Below, in pieces: positions 5,899 to 15,619 of a stretch of DNA of 64,000 bases. Under the pieces are notes generated by a model. The model saw only the letters and a program-made list of their open reading frames with translations. It had not been told where the DNA came from and made no database searches. Numbering within the stretch: the stretch's first letter is position 1; each line of letters starts with the position of its first letter. This DNA is from Haloterrigena salifodinae (GTDB taxonomy: Archaea > Halobacteriota > Halobacteria > Halobacteriales > Natrialbaceae). A program made the translations under genes and the position numbers. Location: contig NZ_RQWN01000003.1 in assembly GCF_003977755.1 (NCBI RefSeq), forward strand, positions 1 through 64,000, in the 5' to 3' direction.

Positions 5899-5954
5899 CT
5901 TTAAGTGCTTCTGGTCACAAGGTGAAGATACGACGGGAGAACGGTTCTTCTCGA
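5899..5954 (+). repeat. Dispersed promoter-like repeat, copy a
   Basis: Begins CTTTAAGTGCTTCTGGTCAC, then AAGGTGAAGATACGACGGG, then a short hairpin GAGAA-CGGTTC-TTCTC and CTCGAG. Identical over most of its length to copies b and d. TTTAAG resembles an archaeal TATA element; 22 bases later a GTG starts the codons for Lys-Ile-Arg-Arg. Confidence 0.85.
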
Positions 5955-6072
5955 GTCCTCAACGATGTCGTAGCGACGGGTTCGCAGTCGGATTCGTATT
6001 ACGCGACTCCACAGGACAGTCTTCAAGACGATCAGCTCACGCTCTTCCCAAGACCCGTCGCTACGCGTTTTT

Positions 6073-6129
6073 CTTTAAGTGCTTCTGGTCACAAGATGAA
6101 GATACGACGGGAGATCGGTTCTTCTCGAG
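6073..6129 (+). repeat. Dispersed promoter-like repeat, copy b
   Basis: As copy a, but the GTG is ATG here, a change that keeps a start codon. The reading frame opened at copy a runs through this copy without a stop, up to 6200. Confidence 0.85.
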
Positions 6130-6184
6130 TCGTCTACTTCGTTAGCGATAGCTCCCGGTCGAGCGGCGGTGATCGCCGCTCGCT

Positions 6185-6229
6185 CTTTAAGTGTCTCTAG
6201 TCACAAAGTGAAGCTACGAAGGGCTTTTC
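6185..6229 (+). repeat. Dispersed promoter-like repeat, copy c (second subtype)
   Basis: Diverged form sharing CTTTAAGTG, GTCACAA, GTGAAG and TACGA, then continuing GGCTTTTCGCGG as in copy f. Its GTG at 6208 is in frame with the nucleotidyltransferase gene that follows. Confidence 0.8.
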
Positions 6230-6264
6230 GCGGACCGCTACCACTCGAGGGACGAGCCACAGCC

Positions 6265-7224
6265 ATGTCTACCGTCCCCGAGTCCGTTTTCGAGACCGTC
6301 GACGACCTGCTGACCGACCTCGAGCGCGACCGCGGGGTGCGCGTCGCGCTGGCGGTCGCCCGCGGCAGTCACGCCTGGGGCGCGGCGAGCCCCGAAAGCG
6401 ACTACGACATCGGCTTCGTCTTCGTCCCGGACGATCTCCGTAGCTACGCCCACCTCGCGGGCCTACCGGAGACGATCCACGAGGCCGTCGACACGGACGA
6501 CGGCGACGTCGAACTGCAGGGCTGGGACGTCCGAACGTTCGCGCGACTGCTCGCGGATTCCAACGACGGCGCGATCGATCTGCTCCGGAGTCCAATCCGC
6601 TACCGCATCGCGTACGAACCCGCGACACTCGCCGATTACGTCGAACGGACGTACAATCCGATGGATCTCTACCACGCGTGGCGGGGCATCGCGACGAGTA
6701 ACTACCGCAAGTACATCTCGCACCATCTGGTCCGTAACGACGACGCGATCTTCCCGATCCTCGAGGCGCGCGAGGACGAGTACGTCGTCGCGACGTGGGA
6801 CGGTGCGGACGACGCGGGCAGCGACGACGGAACGCGAACGATCCCGGTCGACGACGAGCGGTTCGCCGAGACGCAGACGAAACCCACGGTGAAGCGAAAT
6901 CTGACGATCCACCGCGCGGCGATGTCGGCTCGCTACCTGAAGGCGACCGGAGAGCAGGATGGCCACGAGCTACCGGTAATCGAATTCGACCGCTTCCTAG
7001 ACGAGCAGGCACCGTCCGTTTTCGATGCCGATCGGATCGAACGCGCCCGCACGTTGCTCGAGCGAAAGCGGGCCGGCGACGGTTCGGTGCCGATCGGCGA
7101 CGCCGTCGGCCGCGAGTTCGCTCATCCGCCCCGCGAAATCGATCCCGGCCGTCACGCGCGCAGCGGTCCTGATCCGGAGCGGCTAGACGAGTTCGTCGAC
7201 GAGCTGATCGCGGCAGTGCAGTAA
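6265..7224 (+). CDS. Nucleotidyltransferase, RlaP-like (COG3541)
   Basis: 319 aa from the ATG at 6265. The motif GSHAWGAASPESDYDIGF carries the GS and DxD signature of the polymerase-beta-like nucleotidyltransferase fold. The rest fits predicted nucleotidyltransferases of COG3541, some of which (RlaP) accompany RNA repair ligases in bacteria. No ligase is nearby here. The GTG of repeat copy c at 6208 is in frame and would add 19 residues (MKLRRAFRGPLPLEGRATA); that extension is basic and I prefer 6265. The repeat may supply the promoter. The substrate is unknown. Confidence 0.8.
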   Translation: MSTVPESVFETVDDLLTDLERDRGVRVALAVARGSHAWGAASPESDYDIGFVFVPDDLRSYAHLAGLPETIHEAVDTDDGDVELQGWDVRTFARLLADSNDGAIDLLRSPIRYRIAYEPATLADYVERTYNPMDLYHAWRGIATSNYRKYISHHLVRNDDAIFPILEAREDEYVVATWDGADDAGSDDGTRTIPVDDERFAETQTKPTVKRNLTIHRAAMSARYLKATGEQDGHELPVIEFDRFLDEQAPSVFDADRIERARTLLERKRAGDGSVPIGDAVGREFAHPPREIDPGRHARSGPDPERLDEFVDELIAAVQ

Positions 7225-7252
7225 GACGGGGTCGAAGACCGGCGCGCTCGTT

Positions 7253-7308
7253 CTTTAAGTGCTTCTGGTCACAAGGTGAAGATACGACGGGAGAACGGTC
7301 TTCTCGAG
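7253..7308 (+). repeat. Dispersed promoter-like repeat, copy d
   Basis: Differs from copy a by about one base over 56 (GGTCTTC for GGTTCTTC). It lies immediately downstream of the nucleotidyltransferase gene. Confidence 0.85.
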
Positions 7309-7513
7309 TGGGTATCTACTGACCAGTTGCTGCTACCGAGAGCAGCGACTCTATCGGTTCGATCCCCGAGCGCCATTCCGTAGGTATCGGTCGGCCAGGA
7401 TCTTAGCGGCAACTTCGTCCCGTAATTGGATACTGTTGCATCGGGTAGACCACGGCTGTTGCTGTTCTCGTAGTCACAACAGGGTTTACTCGGGTGAGCG
7501 TCTGCACTCGCTA

Positions 7514-7630
7514 ATGACCTGTGACGTGTGTGGCCGGGAGATAGAGGGGGTTAGATTGTACAAAGCGAGCCAGAGAGACACGGGAAGTACGGGGAACCTC
7601 GGCGTCTTTCACCCGGAGTGTCGTCCGTAG
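7514..7630 (+). CDS. Small zinc-finger protein, 38 aa
   Basis: Starts at the ATG at 7514 (MTCDVCGREIEGVRLYKASQ) and ends with HPECRP. The pairs CDVC and HPEC make a Cys2-HisCys zinc site, typical of the one-domain zinc-finger proteins abundant in haloarchaea. The frame is open further upstream, but that sequence is not protein-like. It sits alone between repeat copies d and e. Function unknown; such proteins are usually suspected to be regulators. Confidence 0.7.
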   Translation: MTCDVCGREIEGVRLYKASQRDTGSTGNLGVFHPECRP

Positions 7631-7720
7631 CCAGCCGTCGTACTGATCGATTCGTTCGGTTCTACCGCTGTCGATCCATCCGTTCGTCTCGAACGACCGG
7701 GGCGGACGATCTCCGATCTG

Positions 7721-7777
7721 CTTTAAGTGCTTTTGGTCATAAGGTGAAGATACGACGGAGAGGCGGTCCTTCTGGAG
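7721..7777 (+). repeat. Dispersed promoter-like repeat, copy e
   Basis: More diverged (CTTTTGGTCAT instead of CTTCTGGTCAC), but the CTTTAAGTG, AAGGTGAAGATACGACGG and terminal hairpin region are kept. Confidence 0.8.
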
Positions 7778-7840
7778 TCCCAATTCGCGAGTAGCGAGGC
7801 TACTCTTCGAGCGGTGACTGGGATCAACGTTCCAGTGTCT

Positions 7841-7892
7841 CTTTAAGTACCTCTGGTTACAAGGTGAAGCTACGAGGAGCTTTTCGCGGCGT
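7841..7892 (+). repeat. Dispersed promoter-like repeat, copy f (second subtype)
   Basis: Pairs with copy c: GTGAAGCTACGA followed by AGCTTTTCGCGG. It lies 143 bases before the RNA polymerase epsilon gene. Confidence 0.8.
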
Positions 7893-8034: not shown

Positions 8035-8814
8035 ATGAGAGACGACGGTGCTGAACCCGGTCCAGGCCCCGACGAACCCGCGGCCGTCGGCGACAGCCCG
8101 CAACTCGAGTACGAGGACGAACGCCGACTCGAAAACCGGCCCGGTTCCGGGTCGCTCTCGCGGGCGGACGTCCAGCGCGATTCGACGGTCCGCCAGTGGG
8201 GCGTCGTCACGCCGAGCGCGACCGTGATCGGCCGCGCGGAGTCGTCGGATGGGGACCTCTCGGAGAGCGTCCGCCGACTGCACGACGAACAGCACGCGGC
8301 CACGCCGGGCTACAGCGAGCGCGCTCATCGGCTCGACCGGCTGCGGACGACCCAGGCGCTGTGTAACGCCCTCGAGGTGACGCCGTGGCAGCGGGACCTC
8401 GCGCTGGGGGTCATGGACGAGATCGATCTCACCGAGTTCGGCAGCCAGCGCGCGATCGAGAAGGTCGCGCTGGTAGTCATCCGCCACGTGGTCGACGTCG
8501 ACCGCCAGCAGTATTTTGGGCTCAACGACATCGACGCACAGGCGCTGTCGGCCGACCGGATGGACGACCTGTTCGCCCAGTACCGGGCCCACGATATCAC
8601 CGAGGAGGAGACGTTCAAGCGTCTCGCGGCCGACTATGGGCTGGACACGACCAGCCTGAACCGGCTCCGACGGGTCCTCAAGGAGCAACTCGAGGACGAG
8701 CTACCGGCCTACGGCCGGAACCCCTACCGCGACCCCAACCTCCCGGACGTCACCGAGGCCAACGCGGGGAGCGAGGAAGGCGTCGCCGCCGGCGACGGCG
8801 CGAACGGCGCCTGA
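8035..8814 (+). CDS. DNA-directed RNA polymerase subunit epsilon (haloarchaeal)
   Basis: 259 aa. The central part (STVRQWGVVTPSATVIGRAE, LDRLRTTQALCNALEVTPWQ, a segment on QRAIEKVALVVIRHVVD) matches the haloarchaeal protein annotated as RNA polymerase subunit epsilon. It has a cyclin-like, TFB-resembling helical region and a final helix-turn-helix-like segment near LNRLRRVLKEQL. Both ends are acidic and disordered. The ATG at 8035 is preferred over the open frame from 7999. Repeat copy f lies just upstream. Its role in the polymerase is poorly known. Confidence 0.75.
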   Translation: MRDDGAEPGPGPDEPAAVGDSPQLEYEDERRLENRPGSGSLSRADVQRDSTVRQWGVVTPSATVIGRAESSDGDLSESVRRLHDEQHAATPGYSERAHRLDRLRTTQALCNALEVTPWQRDLALGVMDEIDLTEFGSQRAIEKVALVVIRHVVDVDRQQYFGLNDIDAQALSADRMDDLFAQYRAHDITEEETFKRLAADYGLDTTSLNRLRRVLKEQLEDELPAYGRNPYRDPNLPDVTEANAGSEEGVAAGDGANGA

Positions 8815-14659: not shown

Positions 14660-15619
14660 ATGGCTCGCCCATCCCGCCAGCGCGAACGCGAATCAGAATC
14701 GACCGAAACCACAGATCAACGCGAGCGCGAGCGGGCGTGTGACGAGTGTTCCGACGGAACGCTCGTCACGAGCGAGGATCAGGGCGAACTCGTCTGCGAT
14801 CAGTGCGGACTCGTCGTCGAGGGCTCGAACATCGACCACGGGCCGGAGTGGCGCGCGTTCAACCACTCGGAGCGACAGAGCAAGTCCCGCGTCGGCGCGC
14901 CGACGACCCAGACGATGCACGACAAGGGGCTGACGACCTCCATCGACTGGAAGAACCAGGACGCCTACGGCCGCTCGATCTCCGCGGACAAGCGCAGCCA
15001 GATGCGCCGCCTGCGCAAGTGGCAGGAACGCATCCGCACCAAGGACGCCGGCGAACGCAACCTGCAGTTCGCTCTCAGCGAGATCGATCGGATGGCCTCC
15101 TCGCTTGGCATTCCGCGGTCGGTCCGCGAGGTCGCCTGCGTCATCTACCGGCGTGCGCTCGACGAGGACCTCATCCGCGGGCGCTCCATCGAGGGCGTCG
15201 CCACCAGCACCCTCTACGCCGCCTGCCGCATGGAGGGCATCCCCCGCAGCTTGGAGGAGGTCGCCGCCGTCTCCCGCGTCGAGCGCAAGGAGATCGGCCG
15301 CACCTACCGCTATGTCGCCCAGGAGCTCAGCCTCGAGATGGAGCCCGTCGATCCGAAACAGTACACGCCGCGCTTTTGCTCGGAGCTCGACCTCTCGGAG
15401 GAGGTCCAGGCCAAGGCCACCGAGATCATCGACACGACGACCGAGAAGGGACTGCTGTCGGGCAAGTCGCCCACGGGCTACGCCGCCGCCGCGATCTACG
15501 CCGCCTCGCTGCTCTGTAACGAGAAGAAGACCCAGCGCGAGATCGCCGAGGTCGCACAGGTGACCGAGGTGACTATTCGAAATCGGTATCAGGAGCAGAT
15601 CGAAGCGATGGGCATCTAG
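14660..15619 (+). CDS. tfb: Transcription initiation factor TFB
   Basis: 319 aa. The zinc ribbon is at residues 26-50 (CDECSDG to CDQCG), followed by the B-reader/linker with [13 protein letters not shown] and [19 protein letters not shown]. Two cyclin repeats follow at about 120-205 and 215-305, the second ending in a DNA-contacting helix with [15 protein letters not shown] recognises the BRE and recruits RNA polymerase to TBP-bound promoters. Haloarchaea encode several TFBs; which paralogue this is cannot be told here. About 160 bases later lies the tRNA-Gly tail cassette. Confidence 0.95.

Follow-up and report, generated by a model that had tools for sequence, protein, structure and literature searches.

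The short repeat that occurs six times on one strand around an rlaP-like nucleotidyltransferase gene of Haloterrigena salifodinae is very probably a promoter-type element of rpoeps, the gene encoding RNA polymerase subunit epsilon. According to our best explanation, for which we estimate a probability of about 55%, the repeat would be the promoter element of the haloarchaeal rpoeps gene, which has been multiplied into tandem arrays and also serves a few other sites, and epsilon, with its TFIIB-like predicted core, would act as an initiation specificity factor that recognizes promoters of this class. We hold the assignment of the repeat to rpoeps as a promoter-type element with far more confidence than its recognition by epsilon.

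The analyzed window, a stretch of 64,000 nucleotides (positions 1 to 64,000 of contig NZ_RQWN01000003.1), contains six copies of the element, all on the forward strand. Class 1 comprises copies a (5899-5937), b (6073-6111), d (7253-7291), and e (7721-7759), with transcription starts predicted from the geometry of the TATA and -10 elements at approximately 5930, 6104, 7284, and 7752, respectively. Class 2 comprises copy c (6185-6223), which adjoins rlaP, and copy f (7841-7879), the rpoeps-proximal promoter; their predicted starts, at approximately 6216 and 7872, precede the ATG codons of rlaP and rpoeps by 49 and 163 nt. The number of copies, their common strand, the irregular spacing (174, 112, 1068, 468, and 120 bp), the division into two subtypes (a, b, d, e versus c, f), and the absence of a seventh copy had been claimed in an earlier note on this DNA, and all were reproduced, a PWM scan over the whole 64 kb returning just these six. 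The rlaP-like gene (6265-7224, forward strand) matches PF10127 with an E-value of 6.5e-26, and in the Natrialbaceae it shares the class 2 promoter. Directly behind copy f, just past the interval covered by the earlier note (5899-7892), lies rpoeps (8035-8814, forward strand, 259 aa), assigned by identity to annotated epsilons, the alignments A3 and A4, co-occurrence with the element, and the TFIIB-like predicted core. Copies a and b are separated by a stretch that also contains a perfect 13-bp inverted repeat (5969-5981 and 6053-6065), followed just before copy b by CGTTTTT, which resembles a transcript end for copy a.

A degenerate pattern allowing up to 3 mismatches was found at 8 places in the 4.96-Mb genome, compared with none for a reversed-pattern control, and the E-values of single copies go down to ~1e-14 per genome; the six-copy finding is therefore real and chance is excluded. 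Beyond the window, the same genome contains two more good copies (C3:246884 and C3:247004), located 120 bp apart and preceding a GNAT acetyltransferase gene, as well as a weak copy at C3:179020.

The element is also conserved outside this strain, so that the lack of such conservation, which the earlier note had named as refuting its own reading, does not apply. All 12 relatives found via the RlaP protein have between 3 and 9 copies flanking rlaP in a single orientation. A 39-bp core (TTTAAGTgcTTCTGGTCACAAGGTgnAGaTACGAcGGG) was derived from 68 copies, and a sequence-only model of this core, R1, was used for family- and order-wide searches. Matches to R1 were obtained in 112 of the 125 genomes of Natrialbaceae, with a maximum of 14 copies per genome, and in 156 of the 392 genomes of Halobacteriales, representing 37 of 95 genera and several families; in a sample of the phylum, the element is confined to Halobacteriales. 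Among 72,556 plasmid records, 13 matched, every one of them haloarchaeal; none of these matches coincides with a listed gene, and the element was not found in the phage and viral collections searched.

The anatomy of the element was deduced from base frequencies tabulated over 343 copies. The TATA sequence TTTAAGT (-30 to -24) and the AA at -11/-10 hardly vary, T-A occupies -1/+1 within a TACGA around +1, and the transcription start, deduced from the TATA/-10 geometry, is predicted near core position 32. The published haloarchaeal elements are a TATA of the form TTWT, a BRE of the form CGAAA, and WW at -10 (PMC4983044). A TATA near -30 and WW near -10 thus place the element with canonical haloarchaeal promoters, but the three bases before the TATA are mostly pyrimidines (A accounts for 1-4%) and no purine BRE is present. 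Since the TATA is canonical, TBP, and probably also a TFB, are suggested to still take part in initiation. Between -21 and +8, the near-invariant blocks TTCTGG, ACAAGG, and AGaTACGAcGGG are unusually conserved for an ordinary promoter. Further downstream, the boxes TTCTC (approximately +18, in class 1) and AGC (approximately +40, in both classes) are weakly conserved with slightly variable spacing. The Natrialba-type copies (L022-L025, L027, and L028), unlike the rest of the Natrialbaceae, have a strong hairpin after +9, in which a compensatory change from CCGACGC/GCGTCGG to CTGACGC/GCGTCAG was observed.

The two classes differ in their position relative to genes. Among 38 Natrialbaceae loci, the copy nearest rpoeps belongs to class 2 (ACGAAGGG..TTTTCGCGG) in 37, as does the copy nearest rlaP in 12 of 12, and class 1 copies are arranged upstream of class 2 in tandem. 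Adjacent same-strand pairs run from class 1 to class 2 in 42 cases and from class 2 to class 1 only once, with a median array spacing of 134 bp (middle half, 120-152 bp). This separation of gene-proximal from upstream copies, together with the haloarchaeal promoter geometry, supports the proposal of duplicated promoters made in the earlier note, the copies being predicted promoters. In many genomes, class 1 arrays are located between an AEC-type permease gene and a GNAT gene, and they also occur beside crcB-like genes, folE2, hisG, and a cold-shock gene (the names crcB, hisG, and AEC were assigned by inspection of sequence); many class 1 arrays have no close gene behind them. On plasmids, single copies precede sfsA, endonuclease V, and comEC genes (L246, L247, and L249), and others have no close gene on the element strand. 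The products of the genes directly behind these single plasmid copies are the SfsA nuclease, a pyrimidine-dimer endonuclease V, and a ComEC/Rec2 protein, which together with RlaP hint at a nucleic-acid-repair theme.

The earlier note had centered the repeat on the nucleotidyltransferase and a 38-aa zinc-finger gene. The first association holds inside the Natrialbaceae but not elsewhere, where only 12 of 71 element-positive genomes have rlaP and the gene near the element is usually a different one. Of the 156 element genomes, 83 have rlaP and 73 lack it, and it was rejected as the defining partner. The 38-aa ORF was seen in only some of the congeneric loci fetched. The ORF itself, a CxxC protein encoded at window positions 7514-7630, looks genuinely coding, with 66-87% identity in congeneric loci and a 3-codon indel.

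In every family examined, ORF mapping and alignment placed members of a single protein family next to the element, represented in the window by ORF 8035-8814; rpoeps is the sole gene found there across all of these families. In plasmid records, homologues of this ORF carry the name 'DNA-directed RNA polymerase subunit epsilon', and the ORF is 56-61% identical, over 80-89%, to proteins that RefSeq names epsilon. The constant partner of the element is an rpoeps homologue, present in 155 of the 156 element genomes, and the only exception (G262) is a genome of 87% completeness. Of the 392 genomes of the order, 155 have both element and rpoeps, 1 has the element alone, 25 have rpoeps alone, and 211 have neither; the corresponding Fisher p-value of 5e-81 overstates the evidence, since related genomes are not independent, but the co-occurrence repeats in several families. 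In Halobacteriales outside the Natrialbaceae, rpoeps was found in 70 of the 71 element-positive genomes. Homologues of rpoeps were detected in 204 of the 392 genomes (180 strong), a count based on alignment A3, which contained one unrelated ORF (L100) that was left out of the later HMM and alignment A4. In the phylum sample, rpoeps occurs in 18 of 247 genomes, all Halobacteriales, and every one of the 16 genomes with the element also has rpoeps.

The link extends to position and divergence. In 72 of 83 loci, the element nearest to rpoeps is on the same strand and has its predicted start less than 300 bp upstream of the gene, typically at 84-200 bp; in the subset L111-L170, for which most loci were fetched from epsilon hits, an element lies within this distance in 49 of the 59 rpoeps-holding loci. 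Several separate rpoeps paralogues within one genome have their own element copies. A second copy is often found 25-27 bp past the rpoeps stop codon in family f6, and in family f17 copies converge on rpoeps from behind; the plasmid-borne rpoeps genes of Halococcus dombrowskii and Halorussus halophilus show the f6-type and f17-type arrangements, with upstream and downstream copies. No element was found at the plasmid-borne rpoeps of Halocatena salina, which lies 50 bp behind another gene. In genomes scored as element-negative, rpoeps is often preceded by a diverged version in which the spacing is altered (L150, L194, and L196, with L192 being similar), and a distant epsilon paralogue at L132 is preceded by another diverged element. 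Two further distant paralogues have in common a different upstream box, present once per genome. No recognizable element was found before rpoeps at L195, L197, L198, and L244, nor a common box before most of the distant epsilon paralogues. The observed pattern supports the view that the element is a part of the rpoeps locus and changes along with the gene. At L199-L212, in genomes that do not contain the element, there are further epsilon paralogues of the distant kind (20-36% identity), most of which have no similar upstream box. At three other loci (L090, L091, and L092), pairs or single copies point outward from a 2-kb region that contains genes for an endonuclease dU, a uracil-DNA glycosylase, and a metallo-beta-lactamase-fold protein, toward rpoeps on one side and a seryl-tRNA synthetase gene on the other.

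A 1983 report described epsilon as enabling the Halobacterium RNA polymerase to transcribe native DNA; copurification with the polymerase and native-template transcription are known for H. salinarum epsilon from the literature, and the role of the subunit is still termed enigmatic (PMC8305020). The window protein is not recognized by Pfam or NCBIfam, and a sequence search of the PDB gave no credible epsilon homologue. An AF2 model based on alignment A4 (57 epsilon sequences) has 113 residues at pLDDT of at least 90 and one confident domain; a first model from a thin alignment had a pLDDT of 62, yet gave the same kind of fold matches. Foldseek ranked TFIIB in Pol II complexes highest (probability 0.99, E-value 0.14); the matches below it included cyclin T, archaeal TFB, and Brf2, and TFIIB-like factors and cyclins filled nearly all top rows. 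Structural alignment with VIA-align gave Z-scores of ~10 to TFIIB and 9.6 to Pyrococcus TFB, which for a helical domain indicates a shared fold only. The predicted core is thus cyclin-like at the level of fold, and sequence evidence for homology to TFIIB is weak (hhalign probability 7%; Pfam TFIIB E-value 0.004 in 2 of the 57 members). Since the 259-aa protein contains a single cysteine, it has no N-terminal zinc ribbon; in place of two cyclin repeats it has one confident domain, and the window protein shows no Pfam match for TFIIB. By membership, therefore, epsilon is no TFB, but it may function as part of a TFB does. A gene for a TFIIB-like TFB lies in the window at 15056-15604, approximately 6 kb behind rpoeps. 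In the literature searched, we found no paper on the motif and no link between epsilon and a promoter element.

Three readings treat the copies as something other than, or more than, promoters. The earlier note had combined duplicated promoters with leader peptides beginning at a conserved GTG or ATG. The frame is indeed open in the window genome, but neither the start triplet nor the frame is conserved, relatives often having GTGTAG, GTAGAG, or GTATAG at this site, with stop codons directly after the triplet; moreover, the GTG is located near -7, ahead of the predicted transcription start. For these reasons the leader-peptide reading fails, and we regard it as hardly credible. The alternative named in the same note, small RNA genes, may be broadened to a small non-coding RNA family that possibly acts on the polymerase or epsilon and has its promoter in common with rpoeps. 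A coding gene close by is lacking for most class 1 copies, weak boxes are kept after +1 (CG, TTCTC, and AGC near +40), clear hairpins occur in Natrialba and one other family, and the 13-bp inverted repeat with TTTTT closes the unit of copy a, all of which favor such RNAs. Against them, the RNA from +1 of the 343 copies is no stabler than dinucleotide shuffles (mean z of approximately 0, the same as in control windows), so that the small hairpin described in the note is not a general feature; no poly-T enrichment was found after class 1 copies, and terminators are not supported; and Rfam gave no match for the element. A 5' pseudoknot candidate (CGAC/GUCG and GAGAA/UUCUC) was seen in single sequences, in which the bases are nearly unvarying and covariation is uninformative. 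Discrete small RNAs may exist, though these results lend them no support, and we consider this reading rather unlikely; it could hold alongside the best explanation, the two being not fully exclusive. As to a mobile or selfish repeat of the MITE type, the copies are short, non-coding, multiple, and present also on plasmids, but they are devoid of flanking (terminal) inverted repeats, and their fixed orientation, polar order, conserved sites across genera, and tie to one gene make such an origin extremely improbable.

The strongest rival accepts the element as the rpoeps promoter and assigns its conserved block to the operator of a separate regulator or to the site of a particular TFB/TBP pair, with epsilon being one target; the co-occurrence of element and rpoeps could likewise reflect another regulator controlling rpoeps. 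The block between the TATA and the start is long enough for an operator, rlaP and other genes have the element in common with rpoeps, and haloarchaea have many TFBs, specialized TBP/TFB use having been proposed (PMC2121645). On the other hand, rpoeps is the sole gene beside the element in all families examined, only 1 of 156 element genomes is without rpoeps, and diverged epsilons go with diverged elements. We consider this rival unlikely, albeit better placed than the small-RNA reading, and give preference to recognition of the element by epsilon.

In the preferred explanation, the epsilon-containing polymerase would recognize the element, perhaps replacing the missing BRE contact. If epsilon recognizes this promoter class, then rpoeps would be autoregulated and rlaP would be co-regulated with it in the Natrialbaceae, a few other genes completing the putative epsilon regulon. 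The class 1 copies are candidates for additional promoters, sources of short untranslated transcripts, or titration sites. The biochemical observation that epsilon-containing polymerase transcribes native templates (PMC8305020) favors this explanation, whereas the weak sequence evidence for TFIIB homology, the rpoeps loci at which no element is recognizable, and the many class 1 arrays with no gene close behind them count against it. More tentatively, and at somewhat less than even odds, epsilon may be a TFB-like specificity factor for a dedicated BRE-free promoter class, controlling its own gene, rlaP, and a small regulon that possibly serves nucleic-acid repair; such a system would correspond in archaea to the regulon of an alternative sigma factor, tandem promoter copies without genes being a built-in part of it. 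Since the element precedes rpoeps and occurs almost only in rpoeps genomes, it offers a concrete route to the function of epsilon. Together with the TFIIB-like predicted fold, it leads to a testable proposal, namely that epsilon is a second kind of archaeal initiation-specificity factor, and it provides putative target sites, spread over more than 150 genomes, as well as a ready-made test promoter.

In comparison with the canonical haloarchaeal promoter (PMC4983044), the element has the same TATA at approximately -30, AA at -11/-10, and start at an A after T, and differs in the pyrimidines at the BRE place, the near-invariant sequence from -21 to +8, and the tandem polar arrays. The element-adjacent gene carries in relatives the same annotation as H. 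salinarum epsilon OE_1279R (PMC8305020) and is likewise restricted to a subset of haloarchaea; the identity of the window gene is drawn from these annotated relatives. With TFB/TFIIB initiation factors, epsilon has in common a predicted cyclin-like core that aligns with TFIIB and archaeal TFB, and it differs from them in its one confident domain, single cysteine, and lack of a significant sequence match.

In bacterial autoregulated alternative sigma-factor regulons, the gene of the factor lies behind a promoter that the factor itself recognizes, with few further targets. The proposed epsilon system is similar in that a specificity-factor gene is preceded by a promoter proposed as its target, with few others, and it differs in its TATA-type archaeal promoter, a predicted fold that is TFIIB-like and not that of a sigma factor, and tandem gene-less copies of the element.
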